From Synergistaceae bacterium (GTDB lineage Bacteria > Synergistota > Synergistia > Synergistales > Synergistaceae): a stretch of 64,000 nucleotides of DNA. A program made the translations under genes and the position numbers. The notes below the pieces were generated by a model. It worked only from the letters and a program-made list of their open reading frames with translations, was not told the DNA's origin and ran no database searches. This document shows, one piece after another, positions 5,265-60,746 of this stretch (position 1 is the stretch's first letter; each line of letters opens with the position of its first letter). The DNA lies in the NCBI GenBank assembly GCA_012728235.1, contig JAAYFL010000038.1, positions 1 to 64,000 on the forward strand, given 5' to 3'.

Positions 5265-6320
5265 TCAATATTGATTGAAGAACCCTTGTATCTCCTCCAA
5301 AGAATTGGTTTTTGTAAGGGAAAGCATTAACAATATCCTTGCTTTCTGCGGAGTAAGATCGTCAGCCGTAAGGATGTCTATTTCCTTATATTTTTTCATT
5401 TGCTGCACAGCACCGCACATAGTTTTAGAGGAACGAACAAGTACGGGCAGAGATTTGGCAGATTTAAGATAAGAAATAGTATTTTTATTGAGACTTCCGT
5501 TTCCATTTCCCGCAAAAACGATACCCTGACACGATTTAATAGCATGTGAGATTAAACTTATAGAACTTCCTAAATATCCATATATTATCTCAACATTGGG
5601 CAGATCTTCTAAATCATAGATGTTAAAAGAACTCTTCCAAGTATGTTTTTTTATAGATTCGTAATAAAATCTTACAGTACCGCTTTGTACAGACCCTATG
5701 CAGCCATATTCACTTCCTTGAAAAGCATTAGCCTTATAAGTTGACGTTTTCCTTACATCTCGTGCACAATAAATCCCGTCATTTATGCAGATTAAAACAC
5801 CCTTACCGACTGCTTCCTTATTGCACGCAACTAAAATTGCATTATATAAATTTAAAGGCCCATCGGCACTAATAGCAGAATCAGGTCTCATTGCACCAAC
5901 AAGGACGATAGGTTTATTGCTCCTAACTGTTAAATTAAGAAAATAAGCAGCTTCTTCCATAGTATCTGTACCGTAAGTAAGAACTAGAGCATCTATTGTG
6001 TCTTTCATGAGAAGACTATTTATGTATTTGGATAATGCCAGCATCTCTTTTGTAGTAATGTCAGAGCTGTCAAGTTCTGAAAACTGCTCACTATCTATCT
6101 CGCACAGGGGCCCCAAATCAGGCAATGACCGAAGCAACTCGCGAATTGAACGCTGTGCAACGGTATAATCTGAAGTTTCAGCGTTGTTTTCTGCAGCAGC
6201 GGAGATGGTGCCACCTGTAGCTAAAACATAAACGCGTGGAGTTTTGTTAATTTCTGTTGCTGATACAATAGAAGGGTAGAAGAAAAAAAATACCAAAAGA
6301 ACAAATAGGAAGTTTATCAT
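5265..6320 (-). CDS. ansB: Type II (exported) L-asparaginase
   Basis: This enzyme hydrolyses asparagine to aspartate and ammonia. The N-terminus (MINFLFVLLVFFFFYPSIVSA) is a very hydrophobic signal peptide with a likely cleavage after residue 21, so the enzyme should act outside the cytoplasm, as type II asparaginases do. Both active-site motifs are visible: ATGGTISA with its first threonine at residue 35, and YGTDTMEE near residue 115, supplying the second catalytic threonine and the acidic residue. The mature part, about 330 residues, is normal. It is a single gene on the opposite strand between mtaB and rpsU. In an amino acid fermenter it would make asparagine available as fuel; this last point is inference. 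The symbol is given by family resemblance. Confidence 0.9.
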   Translation of the reverse strand: MINFLFVLLVFFFFYPSIVSATEINKTPRVYVLATGGTISAAAENNAETSDYTVAQRSIRELLRSLPDLGPLCEIDSEQFSELDSSDITTKEMLALSKYINSLLMKDTIDALVLTYGTDTMEEAAYFLNLTVRSNKPIVLVGAMRPDSAISADGPLNLYNAILVACNKEAVGKGVLICINDGIYCARDVRKTSTYKANAFQGSEYGCIGSVQSGTVRFYYESIKKHTWKSSFNIYDLEDLPNVEIIYGYLGSSISLISHAIKSCQGIVFAGNGNGSLNKNTISYLKSAKSLPVLVRSSKTMCGAVQQMKKYKEIDILTADDLTPQKARILLMLSLTKTNSLEEIQGFFNQY

Positions 6321-10064: not shown

Positions 10065-10754
10065 GTGATAAATATGCAAAATATAAGTGCGGGGGGTTAT
10101 CTCTCCGCTTCTTTTTTAGACTGGGAAGGACACGTTGCTGCAGTAATTTTTATGTCAGGCTGTAACTTTAAATGTCCATGGTGTCATAATTCAGATTTAG
10201 TTTTCAACAAAACCACACCTATAAAGGTTACAGAAATTATAGAAGACATAAAACGGAGAAAACTATTTCTAGATGGAGTAGTTATAAGCGGAGGAGAGCC
10301 TACTTGTTCATTAGGCCTCATATCAATGATTCGAGAAATGAAAAAAATTGGTTTGCCAATAAAGCTTGATACAAATGGTTCGCATCCTGAAGTTTTAAAG
10401 CGACTATTAGATGAAAAATTAGTGGAATTTATAGCAATGGACGTCAAATCCCCACTAAACGACCAAGATTTGATGAGAATGACAGGGGTTTCAATTTCTT
10501 CAGATTTATTAAAAGAGAGTATTGAGCTGATAAAAAGGTTAGCTCTAAATTATGAGTTCAGAACCACATATACTCCGGAGCTACTTTCTCAAGAAGAACT
10601 TTTAAAGATACGAAAAGAACTTAACGACGATGTACACTGGGTTGTACAATGTTTTAAGCCGGTGAACTGTATTGATGATAACTGTCTAAATTATAAAGAG
10701 GTTAAATCGGAAGATATAAAGAAAATTTTACCCGGTATAAAGATTAGAGGATAA
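10065..10754 (+). CDS. nrdG: Anaerobic ribonucleotide reductase activating protein (radical SAM)
   Basis: This radical-SAM activase should install the glycyl radical on NrdD. Cys33, Cys37 and Cys40 form the CX3CX2C motif in GCNFKCPWCHN, which binds the 4Fe-4S cluster, and the GGEPT motif follows near residue 80. The 229-residue length and the AAVIFMSG lead-in match the NrdG2-type activases paired with NrdD in anaerobes. The start is either GTG at 10065 or ATG at 10074; neither has a strong ribosome site. It lies right after nrdD with no terminator between. By sequence alone it could activate another glycyl-radical enzyme, but position makes NrdD by far the likeliest partner. Confidence 0.88.
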   Translation: MINMQNISAGGYLSASFLDWEGHVAAVIFMSGCNFKCPWCHNSDLVFNKTTPIKVTEIIEDIKRRKLFLDGVVISGGEPTCSLGLISMIREMKKIGLPIKLDTNGSHPEVLKRLLDEKLVEFIAMDVKSPLNDQDLMRMTGVSISSDLLKESIELIKRLALNYEFRTTYTPELLSQEELLKIRKELNDDVHWVVQCFKPVNCIDDNCLNYKEVKSEDIKKILPGIKIRG

Positions 10755-53290: not shown

Positions 53291-54625
53291 ATGTCTGAAA
53301 AAAGAGAACAGTGGGGCAGTAAGTTTGGTTTTATCATGGCTGCCGCAGGCTCCGCAATCGGTCTTGGAAATATCTGGCGTTTTCCCTATATAACAGGTAA
53401 ATATGGTGGCGCCGCATTTGTATTAGTTTATTTAGCTATAGTTATTATTCTTGGAATGTCCCTAATGTTGGCTGAGTTTGCAATAGGACGCTGCGCGAAA
53501 CAAGATGCAGTCGGTTCTTTTAAAAAGCTTGGCGGAGGACTCTGGCCCATAGTTGGTTGGATGGGTTTCTTTGTAGCTTTCGTGGTTCTTTCCTACTATT
53601 TAGTTATCTCTGGTTGGACAGTTGCCTATATATTTAAGTCTTTTACAGGTCTTATGGACTCCGCTGCTCTAGGCAAAACAGGCGAGGTATTTGTTAATTT
53701 TATTTCAAATCCTGTACAAGCCATAACCTATCACCTAATAGTTATGGGAATAGTAATCGGGATTGTGTACAAAGGTATCTCAGGAGGTATAGAAAAAAGC
53801 TGCAAGGTTCTTATGCCTGCTCTTTTTATTATATTGCTGGTACTTATTGTTCGTTCGTTAACCTTCCCAGGAGCTATGGCTGGGCTTGAGTTTTACCTAA
53901 AACCTGATTTTTCAAAATTAACCGGTGAAGCTATATTAGCTGCTGTTGGGCAAGGCTTCTTTTCTTTATCGCTTGCAATGGGCATAATGATTACATATGG
54001 AAGCTATATACCAAAAGAAGAGTATCTTCCCTCAGCTGTGCAAAAGGTTGTTTTCTTGGATACATTGGCGGCGATTTTAGCTGGATTGGTTATTTTTCCA
54101 GCAGCATTTGCTTTCGGTGTAGCGCCAAATAGCGGAGTAGGCCTTACATTCGTAACATTACCGGTTGTATTTTCAAAAATGCCGCTAGGATTCGCATTCT
54201 CTTCCGCATTCTTTGTTCTTCTTTTCATATCAGCATTGACCTCTGCTATTTCACTTTTTGAAGTTGTTGTTGCTTATGGCATTGACCAGCTTAAATGGAG
54301 CAGAATAAAATCAGTCATCATTATGGGGATTGCGATTGCGCTTTTCGGAATACCCTCAGCATTGGGTGAAGGTGGACATTTTATAAAAATAGCCGGAAAA
54401 ACTTTCCTTGATTTTGCAGACTACATTACAAACAACGTGGTTATGCCGCTTGGCGGAATATTTATCTGTCTTTTTGTGGGATGGTTCTGGGTCAAGGGAG
54501 CGAAAGATGAGATTACCGACAACGGAAAAATCTCCTTCCCCTCGTACAACATTTGGCTCTGGATTTGTCGTATCCTCGCACCTATTACAAATGCTTTAAT
54601 TTTCTATAATGGTCTTAAGTGGTAA
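53291..54625 (+). CDS. NSS-family sodium-dependent amino acid transporter
   Basis: This is an inner-membrane Na+:substrate symporter of the LeuT/NSS family, 444 residues with about 11 membrane segments. The first segment carries the sodium- and substrate-binding signature GSAIGLGNIWRFPYITGKYGG near residue 17, and later GxF/QGFFSLSLAMGIMI is typical of segment 6. GAAAGGGG precedes the ATG. The grd cluster lies 110 bases past its stop, beyond a terminator, so an intake role for glycine, sarcosine or betaine is plausible by position. The family also moves tryptophan, tyrosine, leucine and others, so the substrate is open. Confidence 0.92.
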   Translation: MSEKREQWGSKFGFIMAAAGSAIGLGNIWRFPYITGKYGGAAFVLVYLAIVIILGMSLMLAEFAIGRCAKQDAVGSFKKLGGGLWPIVGWMGFFVAFVVLSYYLVISGWTVAYIFKSFTGLMDSAALGKTGEVFVNFISNPVQAITYHLIVMGIVIGIVYKGISGGIEKSCKVLMPALFIILLVLIVRSLTFPGAMAGLEFYLKPDFSKLTGEAILAAVGQGFFSLSLAMGIMITYGSYIPKEEYLPSAVQKVVFLDTLAAILAGLVIFPAAFAFGVAPNSGVGLTFVTLPVVFSKMPLGFAFSSAFFVLLFISALTSAISLFEVVVAYGIDQLKWSRIKSVIIMGIAIALFGIPSALGEGGHFIKIAGKTFLDFADYITNNVVMPLGGIFICLFVGWFWVKGAKDEITDNGKISFPSYNIWLWICRILAPITNALIFYNGLKW

Positions 54626-54643
54626 AAAGTAAATAAACACACT

Positions 54644-54685
54644 AAAATAATTGTCGCAGTCTTGACTGCGACAATTATTTTTCTA
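54644..54685 (+). terminator. Bidirectional-looking terminator after the NSS transporter
   Basis: A perfect 17-base-pair inverted repeat (54644-54660 with 54665-54681) has a 4-base loop and is followed by further T. It separates the transporter transcript from the grd genes. Confidence 0.93.
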
Positions 54686-54735: not shown

Positions 54736-55152
54736 TTGCACCCTTCGCTTTTTTTGTATCTAACCGTAACGAATAATCCATATATCATAGAACGAGTCAA
54801 AGGTGCGAAGTTACTTAAAGGCACTGCTCTTGATGTCATGACAGAGGCTCGTAATTTAGTACACGCCGGTTGGAATTTAGTTACGAGCCCTCTATATGGA
54901 AATTTTAAACCCAATCAACAACCCTACAGAACTATTGTTTTAAGCAAGTGGAAGGGCGACAATAATATGCCTACGGACTTTGAATTCTTAAATTATTTGG
55001 AAGAAGCAATAAGTATTTATAAAGACGCTCCTATAATAAGGCAAGTTGGAGAATTCTCCGAGGAAATAGATATAGATTTTAGACAGCTCGACTTCATGTT
55101 AATGTCAAAAACATTTCAAAACTGCGGACTACTTCTTTCCCCGTTAAATTAA
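54736..55152 (+). CDS. grdX: GrdX protein of the glycine reductase cluster
   Basis: This small protein of 138 residues matches GrdX, a conserved but functionally undefined member of grd operons. Recognisable parts are LYLTVTNNPYIIERV at the N-terminus, LDVMTEARNLVHAGWNLVTSPLYGNFKPNQQPYRTIVL in the middle, and a C-terminal LDFMLMSKTFQNCGLLL. The start is TTG at 54736 after GTGAGGTA. It leads the cluster; grdE begins about 65 bases later with its own ribosome site. The combination of the middle block and its position makes the name fairly safe, while its role remains unknown in the family. Confidence 0.87.
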   Translation: MHPSLFLYLTVTNNPYIIERVKGAKLLKGTALDVMTEARNLVHAGWNLVTSPLYGNFKPNQQPYRTIVLSKWKGDNNMPTDFEFLNYLEEAISIYKDAPIIRQVGEFSEEIDIDFRQLDFMLMSKTFQNCGLLLSPLN

Positions 55153-55216: not shown

Positions 55217-56512
55217 GTGAAATTAGAACTGCAAAAAGCATTAGTAAAAGGGATAGTCTGGGGCAATAAGACAGAACTACTCAAAGATTCAACCCTTCAA
55301 ATCAACAAAAATGAGCTTTTGGAGTTTGTTTCTGATGTGGAAAATTTTAGCGCCATAGACGCGGACTTGGCCAGACCTGGCGAAAAGGTCAGGATTGTGC
55401 CAGTAAAAGATGTCATTCAACCTCGCTACAAAATAGAGGGAAAGGGACAGGTCTTTCCCGGTATGATTAGCGACGTCGAAACTGTGGGAGAAGGCAAAAC
55501 CTTTGTGCTTGAAGGTGCCGCAGTGGTAACTTGCGGAAAAATTATTAACTTTCAAGAGGGAATAATAGATATGTCGGGAGAAGGAGCCAAATACACTCCT
55601 TTTTCAAAAACAATGAATATGGTCCTTGTAGTAGAAAGAAAAGAGGGGCTTGAAAATCACGCATACGAAGAAGCGTGTAGAATGGCAGGTTTTAAGGCTG
55701 CCCTCTATCTCGCAAAAAAAGCATACGAGAGTGGAGCTAAAGCGGATAGTATAGAAACATATGAAATGCCGTCTCTTTCAGAAAGACTCTCAGAACATCC
55801 CCAACTTCCTAAGGTTGCCTACTTATATATGTTGCAAACTCAAGGCCTTCTACATGACAGCTATGTTTATGGTGTTGATGTCAAAAATATTATTCCCACT
55901 CTTATCAGCCCAACCGAAATTATGGATGGCGCAATAGTATCTGGGAATTGTGTTTCTGCTTGCGACAAAAATAGTACTTACACTCACCAAAATAATCCAG
56001 TAATAAATAAACTATACGAACATCACGGCAAGGACCTAAACTTCGTCGGAGTAATTATTACAAATGAAAATGTTACTTTGGCAGATAAAAGACGCAGCTC
56101 CTCCTACGCTGTTAAACTTGCAACAATGATAGGAGTAGACGGACTCATAATAAGTGAAGAAGGATTCGGGAACCCTGATGCAGATCTCATAATGAACTGT
56201 ACAAAAGCAGAAAAAGTCGGAATAAAAACTGTTTTGATAACGGACGAATATGCCGGCCGCGATGGGGCAAGCCAATCGTTGGCAGATGCAGCTCCTGAAG
56301 CTGATGCAGTAGTAACAGCCGGCAACGCAAATGAAATAGTAGTTCTTCCCAAAATGGACAAGATTATAGGTTTCACAGAATATGTAGACATCATCGCAGG
56401 CGGATTTGACGGTTCTCTTCGTCCCGACGGAACAATAGAGGTAGAACTTCAAGCCATAACAGGTTCCACATCGGAACTTGGATTCACAAATATTGGCGCC
56501 AAGAGCTGGTAG
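55217..56512 (+). CDS. grdE: Glycine/sarcosine/betaine reductase component B proprotein (alpha and beta subunits)
   Basis: This component B proprotein is cleaved into two subunits, one carrying a pyruvoyl group that forms a Schiff base with the substrate amine. The 431-residue protein starts at GTG 55217 with AAGGGGGA seven bases upstream; the ATG at 55196 overlaps that site. The expected processing site is present as SGNC, Asn244-Cys245, in IVSGNCVSACDKN. Later blocks such as TDEYAGRDGASQSL are conserved. grdB, the selenocysteine subunit, follows 12 bases later. GrdE (glycine), GrdG (sarcosine) and GrdI (betaine) are close relatives; the position next to grdX favours glycine, but I cannot exclude sarcosine. 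Confidence 0.9.
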   Translation: MKLELQKALVKGIVWGNKTELLKDSTLQINKNELLEFVSDVENFSAIDADLARPGEKVRIVPVKDVIQPRYKIEGKGQVFPGMISDVETVGEGKTFVLEGAAVVTCGKIINFQEGIIDMSGEGAKYTPFSKTMNMVLVVERKEGLENHAYEEACRMAGFKAALYLAKKAYESGAKADSIETYEMPSLSERLSEHPQLPKVAYLYMLQTQGLLHDSYVYGVDVKNIIPTLISPTEIMDGAIVSGNCVSACDKNSTYTHQNNPVINKLYEHHGKDLNFVGVIITNENVTLADKRRSSSYAVKLATMIGVDGLIISEEGFGNPDADLIMNCTKAEKVGIKTVLITDEYAGRDGASQSLADAAPEADAVVTAGNANEIVVLPKMDKIIGFTEYVDIIAGGFDGSLRPDGTIEVELQAITGSTSELGFTNIGAKSW

Positions 56513-56524
56513 GAGGGTAAGAAG

Positions 56525-57832
56525 ATGACATATAGAGTCGTACATTATATCAATCAGTTTTTTGCCGGCATTGGAGGAGAAGAAAAAGCAGACATAGCTC
56601 CTGAATCTCGCCCAGGCGTAGTTGGCCCCGGTATGGCTTTAAAAGCATCATTCGGTTCACAAGCAGAAATTGTGGGGACCGTAATTTGTGGAGATGGCTA
56701 CTTTGCTGAGAATATGGAGTCAGCCACAGATGAAGTGCTAAAACTAATAGCAGAATTTAAACCGGATGCTTTTGTAGCAGGCCCGGCTTTTAATGCCGGA
56801 CGCTATGGTACGGCCTGTGGTGCTGTTTGCGAGGCTGTTTCAAGGCAGCTAAACATTCCGGTTGTTACAGGAATGTATCCTGAGAATCCCGGCGTTGATA
56901 TGTATCGCAAGTCAGTATACATAGTTGAAACAGAGGGAAGTGCCAGAGGACTGAAAGATGCTGCTCCAGCAATGGCGAAACTCCTTCTCAAAGCACTTTC
57001 TCCTGAAGGATTAGGTAGTCCGCAAGATGATGGATACCTTTCTCGCGGAGTTCGTATTAACTGTTTCTTTGAAAAAACCGGAGCCACACGTGCTGTTGAG
57101 ATGCTTATTAAAAAATTAAAGGGTGAAAAGTTTGAGACGGAATATCCCATGCCCTCATTTGACAGAGTGCCCCCTGCGGCTGCACTTACAGACTTGGAAG
57201 AAGCGACCATCGCTGTCATCACTTCTGGAGGGGTAGTCCCGAAAGGAAATCCTGATCGCATAGAATCGTCAAGTGCAAGTAAATTTGGCACATACAGTAT
57301 ATTGAACGTACAGTCTGCAAACAAAGAAAATTATCAGACTGCACATGGCGGATATGACCCGACATGCGTGAATGAAGATCCTAACAGAGCTCTTCCAGTT
57401 GACGTGCTACGTGAAATGGAAAGAGAGGGAGTATTCAAAAAACTTTACGAATACTTCTCGACAACCGTTGGGAATGGGACCTCTACAGCTAATGCAAAAA
57501 AGTTTGGGATAGCAATAGGAGAACAGCTCAAAAAAGATCATGTGGATGCAGTAATTCTTACTTCAACTTGAGGAACTTGCACTCGTTGCGGTGCAACGAT
57601 GGTAAAAGCTATAGAAAGCTATGGGATTCCGGTAGTACACGTGTGTACAATCGTGCCAATTTCACAAACGGTAGGAGCGAATAGAATTGTCCCCGCCGTA
57701 GCAATACCTTATCCTCTGGGAGACCCATCAAAATCTCCGTCAGAGGAAAAAGATCTTCGCAGAACAATACTTGAAAAAGCTCTAAAAGCACTACAGACAC
57801 CTGTTACCGAGCAAACAGTGTTTACAGATTAA
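56525..57832 (+). CDS. grdB: Glycine reductase component B selenoprotein GrdB (in-frame UGA = selenocysteine)
   Basis: This is the substrate-specific selenoprotein subunit of glycine reductase component B. The coding region contains a TGA at 57569-57571 (codon 349), which I read as selenocysteine. The same frame continues without a break to TAA at 57832, giving 435 residues, the family length. The residues around it, LTSTU then GTCTRCGATMVKAIESYG, match the GrdB active site U-x2-C. A hairpin directly after the TGA looks like a bacterial SECIS. A gene caller that stops at TGA would split this into a 348-residue protein and a spurious downstream ORF. GGAGGGTAAG precedes the ATG. Relatives GrdF and GrdH use sarcosine or betaine. 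Confidence 0.93.
57569..57600 (+). promoter_or_regulatory. UGA selenocysteine codon and bacterial SECIS-like hairpin in grdB
   Basis: Starting six bases after TGA (57569-57571), TTGCAC (57577-57582) pairs perfectly with GTGCAA (57591-57596) around the 8-base loop TCGTTGCG. Stem position, length and a G/U-bearing loop about 12-20 bases downstream fit the SelB-binding element of bacterial selenoprotein mRNAs. The pairing is seen; the SelB function is inferred. Confidence 0.8.
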
Positions 57833-57843
57833 AATATTAAAAT

Positions 57844-57882
57844 AACAAGGCAGTTGTGAACGTGAGTTTCAACTGCCTTGTT
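57844..57882 (+). repeat. Inverted repeat between grdB and grdC, weak terminator or attenuator
   Basis: AACAAGGCAGTTG (57844-57856) pairs perfectly with CAACTGCCTTGTT (57870-57882), but the stem is followed by ACTACC, not a T run. It lies 12 bases past grdB in the 192-base grdB-grdC gap, so it may lower grdCD transcription or protect the upstream mRNA end. Confidence 0.6.
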
Positions 57883-58024
57883 ACTACCTCTGCAGAATAC
57901 TTAAAATACTTTAATACTGCAACTTAGATTGAGAAATTAATAGCCATAGTAAGAATCTCTAAACTCTTACTGTATCTGTGGTTATATAATCCTAATAATT
58001 TAACTTAAACAGGGAGGAACTGAA

Positions 58025-59560
58025 ATGCCCAAAGCCGCAATTAAAGCAGCCTCATATTCGTTAAACCATGTGCCTGAACTGGCTATTTTTTATGGCAATA
58101 CGCCCTATGTAGAAAGATCGAAACATCCTAACTCAGAATTTCTTACCGAACTTCCAAAACATGTTCAACAATACAATGAAGCAGCTGGATATCCACCAAA
58201 TAAAACTTACATAGGTTCTTTAACGATTGATGAATTAGAGGCTAAAGTTCAACCTTGGCACGAAAATCTCGACAAATCGACAGAACGGTATGGCAAATAC
58301 GGAGAGATTATGCCTGAAGACGAGACAATTGGATTCTTGGATATTTGTGACGTTTTCGATCTTATATGGTTAGAAAAAGAATTCGCCGAATCAATTAGGA
58401 AGAAGCTGGCGAAACATCCACTAATGAGAGAAGAGATTTTGTCGCGCCTTGAAAAAGGACATGAGCTTTCAGAAATAAATGATGAAATCTCAAAATCAAC
58501 AGCTCTGCCACTTTATTTCGAAAATAAAGTAGTAGGCTGTTGTAGAAGGGCGCATGAATCAGATCCAAATCTCACTTCCTATGAGCTTCTTGTAAATATA
58601 ACATCCAAGGCCACGGCGGTTCTATCTCTTCTTCATCTTATAAAAAGTAGCAATCTGAAAGCAGAAGAAATTGATTTTGTTATAGAGTGTTCTGAAGAGG
58701 CAGCGGGAGATATGAATCAGCGCGGTGGCGGCAACTTCGCTAAGGCAATAGCTGAAATAGCAGGTTGTACAAATGCTTCTGGCTGCGATGTCCGTGGTTT
58801 TTGTGCAGGACCGGTACATGCAATACTCAGCGGAGCTTCAATGGTAGCAGCTGGAACCAGAAAGAACGTTGCAGTTGTAGCAGGAGGAGCCATTCCCAAA
58901 CTTTATATGAACTCACGTGACCACGTGAAAAAACAGCTTCCCGCACTTGAAAACTGTCTTGGCTCATTTGGAGTTTTGATAGTTCCTGAAGACGGCATTT
59001 CACCGGTAATACGTCTAGATGCGATAGGGAAGCATACTGTTGGTGCCGGTGCTTCTCCCCAAGCGGTAACATCTGTTCTTACATACGAACCTCTGCAAAA
59101 AATAGGCTTAACTCTCAACGATGTAGATAAATATGCTCCTGAACTTCAAAATCCAGAAATCACACTGCCAGCAGGAGCGGGCAATGTGCCGGAAGCAAAC
59201 TTTAAAATGATTGCGGCTCTTGGTGTAATGAAAGGGCAAATAGAAAAAAGCGATATGCTAACCTTTATAAAAAAACATGGAATGACAGGTTTCGCACACA
59301 CACAAGGGCACATCCCTTCGGGAGTTCCATACATTGGTCATGCTATAGATGCTATGGCCTCCGGCACAATAAACAGAGCAATGATTATAGGTAAGGGAAG
59401 TTTATTTTTGGGACGTCTAACAAACCTGGCAGATGGAGCCTCTTTTTTATTAGAAAGGGCAACAGGCCGGGTAGAGTCTGAAAGTGCAACTACAAAAGAG
59501 GAAATTCGAACACTAATATTGGAATCTCTCATAGAAATAGCTGAAGGCCTGAATAAATAA
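58025..59560 (+). CDS. grdC: Glycine reductase component C, beta subunit GrdC
   Basis: This subunit of component C (PC) takes the carboxymethyl group from selenoprotein A and, with GrdD, forms acetyl phosphate. The 511-residue protein is of family length. It has a thiolase-like core with several Gly/Ala-rich loops (AAGDMNQRGGGNFAKAIAEIAG, GAGASPQAVTSVL) and a C-terminal HTQGHIPSGVPYIGHAIDAM block recalling ketoacyl-synthase-type enzymes. GGGAGGAA precedes the ATG. grdD follows ten bases later. Component C is shared among glycine, sarcosine and betaine reductases. Confidence 0.93.
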   Translation: MPKAAIKAASYSLNHVPELAIFYGNTPYVERSKHPNSEFLTELPKHVQQYNEAAGYPPNKTYIGSLTIDELEAKVQPWHENLDKSTERYGKYGEIMPEDETIGFLDICDVFDLIWLEKEFAESIRKKLAKHPLMREEILSRLEKGHELSEINDEISKSTALPLYFENKVVGCCRRAHESDPNLTSYELLVNITSKATAVLSLLHLIKSSNLKAEEIDFVIECSEEAAGDMNQRGGGNFAKAIAEIAGCTNASGCDVRGFCAGPVHAILSGASMVAAGTRKNVAVVAGGAIPKLYMNSRDHVKKQLPALENCLGSFGVLIVPEDGISPVIRLDAIGKHTVGAGASPQAVTSVLTYEPLQKIGLTLNDVDKYAPELQNPEITLPAGAGNVPEANFKMIAALGVMKGQIEKSDMLTFIKKHGMTGFAHTQGHIPSGVPYIGHAIDAMASGTINRAMIIGKGSLFLGRLTNLADGASFLLERATGRVESESATTKEEIRTLILESLIEIAEGLNK

Positions 59561-59570
59561 GGTGAAAAAT

Positions 59571-60746
59571 ATGGACAATATAAATTCAAAAGCCGAAACA
59601 AAAAAAATAATAGGCGAAGTCCTAACAGAGATAGTCGAAAGTGTCAAATACGGAAACTTTAAAAAGACAAAAATCGGCTTAATGGTTTATGGAAGCGAGT
59701 TGGGAGAAGAAGAGCTGCTCAAGGGCGCTTTCCGCGCCATGCAAAATGATCCTTCCATTGAAGTTGTCCCTATTGGGCCGAAACTCGAAGGTTACGAAAA
59801 TTACGAATGGATAGAAACTCAAGCTTGTGAAAGTGAAGTTTCCGAGGCAATGGAGAAAGCACTTAGAAATGGCGAGATTGAAGGTGCGGTGGCCCTACAC
59901 TATCCATTCCCTCTCGGAATAATTACCATTGGCAGAATAATAACCCCAGCAAAAGGTAATTCTTGTTTTATAGCTTCATCAACAGGTTCATCTTCAGCAA
60001 ACAGAGTTGAAGCTATGATACGAAATGCCATTTTAGCCATAGCCACAGCAAAGGCAAATGGCATTGCTAACCCGACAATAGGGATATTAAATCTTGATGG
60101 AGCACGTACAGCACTTCGTGCACTTCAAAAACTAAATGAAAACGGATATAAAATAAATTTTGCATCAAGCGCCAGAAAAGACGGAGGAGCCATACTCAGG
60201 GGGAATGATCTTCTTATCGGAGTTGCGGATATCTGCGTAACAGACACATTAACAGGCAATGTACTCATGAAACTGTTTTCAGCATGGAATACAGGAGGCA
60301 ACTTCGAATCAGTCGGTTGGGGTTACGGTCCTTCTGTTGGTGATGGCTGGGATAAAGTAGTATCCATAATCTCTAGAGTATCAGGAGCCCCTGTTGTGGC
60401 AAATGCACTCTCATACAATGCTAAATCAGTGAGAAATGAATTGTCCACAAAAGTTCGGGAAGAGCTTGTCCTGGCCCAAAAAGCAGGTTTAGACGAAATA
60501 ATAAATTCAATTAGCTCAAGAGAAACTGTAGAAAACCCGTGTGAGGTTAAAGCTCCGGAAAAAGAGACAACAGATGAGGAGCTCCAAGGTATAGATGTAT
60601 TGGAAATAGAAAATGCAGTTATAACACTTTGGAAAGCCGGAGTATATGCAGAGTCTTCAATGGGCTGTACCGGCCCCGTTGTAAAGTTTTCGTCATCTAA
60701 AAAAGAAATGGTCAGAAAAATACTCAAAGAAAACGGCTATATATAG
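59571..60746 (+). CDS. grdD: Glycine reductase component C, alpha subunit GrdD
   Basis: This is the partner of GrdC that releases acetyl phosphate. The 391-residue protein has a PlsX-like fold (blocks such as NPTIGILNLDGARTALRAL and GNDLLIGVADICVTDTLTGNVLMK). The C-terminal cysteine in SSMGCTGPVV (about residue 366) corresponds to the active-site thiol Cys359 described for GrdD of Eubacterium acidaminophilum. I use the ATG at 59571, with AAGGTG seven bases upstream; the GTG at 59562 is part of that site. It is the last gene of the cluster, and a hairpin separates it from convergent etfA. Confidence 0.93.
   Translation: MDNINSKAETKKIIGEVLTEIVESVKYGNFKKTKIGLMVYGSELGEEELLKGAFRAMQNDPSIEVVPIGPKLEGYENYEWIETQACESEVSEAMEKALRNGEIEGAVALHYPFPLGIITIGRIITPAKGNSCFIASSTGSSSANRVEAMIRNAILAIATAKANGIANPTIGILNLDGARTALRALQKLNENGYKINFASSARKDGGAILRGNDLLIGVADICVTDTLTGNVLMKLFSAWNTGGNFESVGWGYGPSVGDGWDKVVSIISRVSGAPVVANALSYNAKSVRNELSTKVREELVLAQKAGLDEIINSISSRETVENPCEVKAPEKETTDEELQGIDVLEIENAVITLWKAGVYAESSMGCTGPVVKFSSSKKEMVRKILKENGYI

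Follow-up and report, generated by a model that had tools for sequence, protein, structure and literature searches.

The gene grdB (positions 56525 to 57832, forward strand) of the window, the whole 64,000-nt stretch of DNA analysed here, is a selenoprotein gene. It is very nearly certain that its UGA at 57569-57571 is decoded as selenocysteine (Sec) via SelB, Sec-tRNA(Sec) and a SECIS_4 hairpin, giving a selenoprotein B of glycine reductase (GrdB) of 435 residues. Decoding as selenocysteine was proposed in an earlier sequence-only reading, and is supported by the conservation of the TGA, the SECIS element, the presence of selA, selB and selC, and the score of the protein against TIGR01917. 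The codon, its conservation, the SECIS element and the presence of selA, selB, selC and grdA were established directly.

The grdB reading frame and its conserved TGA

The frame of grdB, set by the ATG at 56525, is interrupted by the TGA and then continues for 86 sense codons to a TAA at 57830-57832. The sequence-only reading had given 87 codons up to a normal stop; the open frame is there, and 87 is reached only by counting the TGA or the stop. Sec is residue 349, in the context DAVILTST-U-GTCTRCGATMVK. This is the UxxCxxC motif of GrdB with its U coded by UGA (UGTCTRC), which bears out the resemblance noticed earlier between the residues flanking the TGA and the GrdB active site. The table-11 listing of open reading frames cuts grdB to 348 aa, ending at 57571, the truncation by standard gene calling that had been foreseen.

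Against TIGR01917, the NCBIfam equivalog for glycine reductase selenoprotein B, the read-through protein scored 639.3 bits over residues 4-433 and the truncated protein 474.9, with the cut-off at 602.2. Since only the read-through form passes, read-through is needed for membership in the equivalog. A GrdB family model gave 645.5 bits for the read-through and 481.6 for the truncated protein, so that read-through gains approximately 164 bits on both models. The product also matched Pfam GRDB (PF07355) at 550.4 bits, and fell below the curated cut-offs of the models for sarcosine GrdF (693.2 vs. 800) and betaine GrdH (539.6 vs. 775). A sequence search of the PDB found no relative at 0.001. The 347 positions of PF07355 end exactly one residue before Sec, which suggests that this model was built on truncated gene calls.

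A search of 188 Synergistota genomes found grdB in 134, and the codon after residue 348 was read in 130 further loci, or 131 with that of the window. It is TGA in all 131. The residues that come next are GTCTRCGA or differ from it slightly, and the frame after the TGA stays open for 84-89 codons (one locus runs off its contig). Long open-frame values at some of these loci were considered as a sign of a sense codon and rejected; the frames are long because they open upstream, and the TGA is present there too. A set of 80 named records, drawn from Synergistota, Clostridia, Spirochaetia, Fusobacteria and others and partly overlapping the Synergistota genomes of the 131-locus set, has 81 grdB sites, of which 80 have TGA and one TAG. 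No sense codon, for Cys or any other residue, occurs at the 131 + 81 sites; a relative carrying one had been named beforehand as evidence against selenocysteine. The absence of sense codons agrees with the very few Cys homologues known for GrdB (PMC1794560). The closest named relatives of the window's grdB are from Synergistaceae MAGs, with up to 76% identity, which points to Synergistota as the phylum of the genome. A divergent GrdB in a Candidatus Tectomicrobia MAG (L245), 49% identical, has kept the TGA, and in it the middle Cys of UxxCxxC is replaced by Ser (U-GTSTRCGA).

The SECIS element after the UGA

Rfam has a single match in the window, beginning at the base after the TGA. It is to RF01990, SECIS_4, at 57572-57609 on the forward strand, with 60.5 bits (gathering threshold 38, E 7e-12). 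All 38 positions of the model are matched, and the element shares with it the inner stem, the GGU loop and the location directly after the UGA, differing by minor base changes only. Its apical hairpin (57583-57599) has a 7-bp stem, 57583-57589/57593-57599, closed by the loop GGU at 57590-57592, and the distance from UGA to loop is 18 nt. This structure is the one given by energy minimization, by the Rfam model and by covariation alike.

The sequence-only reading had placed a hairpin in the same stretch in another register, with a 6-bp stem and an 8-base loop (57577-57582/57591-57596). The letters of that stem exist; it was nonetheless rejected, both by covariation and by the bacterial SECIS (bSECIS) rules, as the wrong register and not the conserved structure. 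The two stems were compared in the 131 loci, numbering from the T of TGA, with expected pairing obtained by synonymous resampling from each locus's own codons. For the minimum-energy stem, 15-21/25-31, 97.5% of cells are paired vs. 60% expected (sd 1.1), an excess of 38 points. The stem proposed earlier, 9-14/23-28, is paired in 81% of cells vs. 65% expected (sd 1.1), an excess of 16 points, part of which is probably a by-product of the other stem because the two share bases 25-28. Its outer pair, 9-28, forms in 20% of the loci and pair 13-24 in 67%; the remaining four are unbroken throughout, though mostly on bases that the protein fixes. Outside Synergistota, in 59 loci, the GGU-loop stem is paired in 91% of cells vs. 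84% for the alternative.

Pair 18-28 of the GGU-loop stem holds in each of the 131 loci, as TA (104 loci), AT (20) or GT (7). Both sides have changed in 27 of them, a change that tracks a Thr/Ser replacement in the protein. Pair 16-30 is CG in 130 loci and AT in one, and the codons TGC and GCA of the stem keep their third base throughout (131/131 each). The rules printed in PMC13188914 call for a loop of 3-9 nt, a stem of 4-16 bp, a G at loop position 1 or 2, a UGA-to-loop distance of 16-37 nt and a minimum free energy of at most -7.5. With its 3-nt loop, 7 bp and 18-nt spacing, and an energy of -7.5 kcal/mol alone or -11.5 with flanks, the GGU hairpin satisfies all of them. The earlier register departs from three: its loop begins UC, its spacing is 11 nt and its energy is -6.4 kcal/mol. 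A test by bacterial SECIS rules, for which bSECISearch had been suggested, thus favors the GGU-loop register.

The grd cluster, the selenocysteine machinery and the missing selD

On the forward strand around grdB lie, in order, a sodium-dependent transporter of the SNF family recognized by profile matches (53291-54625), a grdX family gene (54736-55152; NF038093, 100.8 bits, cut-off 40), grdE, grdB, grdC and grdD, followed by convergent electron-transfer flavoprotein genes. The transporter is possibly the importer of the substrate. A strong terminator-like hairpin with 17 pairs (54644-54681) separates it from grdX, which suggests separate transcripts. Directly upstream of grdB is grdE (55217-56512), which encodes the component B pro-protein (Pfam Gly_reductase, 677 bits); its start is probably the GTG at 55217, judging by the preceding AAAGGGGG. 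The genes for component C, grdC (subunit beta, 58025-59560; NF040746, 747.3 bits, cut-off 450) and grdD (subunit alpha, 59562-60746; NF040747, 543.4 bits, cut-off 350), follow. Between grdB and grdC, an inverted repeat of 14 bp without mismatch encloses a 13-nt loop (57843-57883; -24.5 kcal/mol, z -7.8); it has no T run and may serve in processing or attenuation. The contig also carries grdA, which has its own in-frame TGA, and trxA, at a distance of approximately 44 kb; with these, grdE, grdC, grdD, grdA and a thioredoxin are all present in the genome.

The assembly comprises 1.57 Mb in 163 contigs and is 96% complete. The sequence-only reading had asked for selA, selB, selC and selD, and the first three were found, all over their cut-offs: selA (575.2 bits) and selB (354.3 bits) are adjacent on contig C16, and a tRNA-Sec (selC; 72.2 bits) with anticodon UCA is on contig C28. 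Among the 188 Synergistota genomes, selA is present in 123 of 134 with grdB and in 10 of 54 without it (Fisher p 7e-23, a descriptive value only, as the genomes are related). Either selA or tRNA-Sec is carried by 131 of the 134; the three exceptions are 75-83% complete.

The expected selD was not found, a profile search of the assembly giving no match over the cut-off. The best selD match, a HypE-like AIR synthase at C38:66476, was rejected as a stand-in because hypE is its best-scoring family, it reaches none of the cut-offs and inspection by eye showed no Cys/Sec loop. In G141, the only other genome of the genus compared, there are two selD genes that are 49% identical to each other and both contain an in-frame TGA; the lptG-birA interval houses one of them (L168), and a 9-kb contig carries the other. 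The window genome has the same order on C16, lpxA-kdsC-lptG-birA-prfB (gene names by eye from translations), with a lptG-birA interval of only 69 bases that holds no selD, and a birA with an in-frame TAA (L253:8340-9501). From this gap in a conserved gene order, that copy of selD is judged to be truly absent. The second kind could be missing through a gap in so fragmented an assembly; a DNA search of the window genome with the G141 selD contig gave no match, in a search run without a positive control. G141 gave no grdB match, which means that not every member of the genus has the system.

These findings bear on the possibility that grdB is a Sec gene no longer made as a selenoprotein here, selD having been lost and the Sec system being in decay. 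The lack of selD at 96% completeness, together with the short interval beside an interrupted birA, is what such decay would leave behind, but selA, selB, selC, grdA and grdB are all intact, as is the SECIS. Moreover, 14 other draft genomes with grdB, selA and selC also have no selD, which makes an assembly gap the ordinary explanation, and G141's second copy is on a contig of a kind possibly missing here. Decay is therefore unlikely. It is likewise doubtful, and slightly more so, that the GrdA and GrdB selenoproteins would be made with SelA, SelB and tRNA-Sec and without any SelD, with activated selenium coming from another enzyme or from outside. A truncated or dying grdB, with the TGA as a genuine stop or as an artifact of sequencing or assembly, would fit the standard gene call and the end of the Pfam model one residue earlier, but is scarcely credible when 131/131 relatives share the TGA, frame and protein are conserved beyond it and a SECIS of 60.5 bits follows. 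Equally far-fetched is a genome-wide reading of UGA as another amino acid, e.g., Trp (code 4): the frame is open if TGA is taken as sense, but neighboring annotated genes are full length under table 11, and tRNA-Sec, SelA and SelB are present with a SECIS at the right distance.

Relation to known glycine reductase systems

The established mechanism in bacteria has SelB attach to the loop of the SECIS and bring Sec-tRNA(Sec) to the UGA (PMC13188914). A ribosome arriving at the UGA of this grdB would not terminate there but receive Sec from a SelB that holds Sec-tRNA(Sec) and sits on the GGU-loop hairpin, and the product would be a GrdB of 435 residues whose active site is U-x-x-C-x-x-C. With GrdE this protein would make up component B, which binds the substrate of glycine reductase; GrdA, the second selenoprotein, and GrdC/GrdD would complete the conversion of glycine to acetyl phosphate. 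The action of SelB at the SECIS, the presence of Sec in the protein, and the reaction and its substrate are predicted from the known biology of the family.

With a full-length match to GrdB of glycine reductase (TIGR01917/TIGR01918, PF07355), Sec in UxxCxxC and a shared grdE-grdB-grdC-grdD neighborhood, nothing of substance sets this system apart from those already described; here grdA and trxA lie at some distance on the contig. Recoding of grdB is a textbook, catalogued case. In the table of PMC5029168 only two bacterial selenoprotein families are more common than GrdB, the SECIS is already in Rfam, and UGA with SECIS has already been reported for the phylum. Cloacibacillus porcorum MFA1, also of the Synergistota, has eight grdB genes with UGA and predicted SECIS and the full Sec machinery (PMC10838667); the window genome likewise has UGA and SECIS, with one grdB as against eight paralogues.

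More unusual than the UGA described here is the occurrence of UAG at both Sec sites in a Coriobacteriia MAG (L223, JAUNNF010000009.1). It has TAG, not TGA, at the Sec sites of grdB (5945-5947) and grdA (10448-10450), and SECIS_4 matches at 55.7 bits directly after the TAG of grdB. Its grdE and grdD end on TAG, and TGA is found at none of 11 gene ends checked. Sequencing error hardly accounts for a TAG at each of two Sec sites of a single contig. Selenocysteine coded by UAG is known in Geodermatophilaceae (PMC5330540), and these sites raise the possibility that it occurs outside that family; a literature text search for selenocysteine, UAG and Coriobacteri- together found no paper.

The grdB of the window introduces no new principle and is a clean example of a recoded stop overlooked by standard gene calling. 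Its correct annotation decides whether glycine (Stickland-type) reduction is recognized in this genome.
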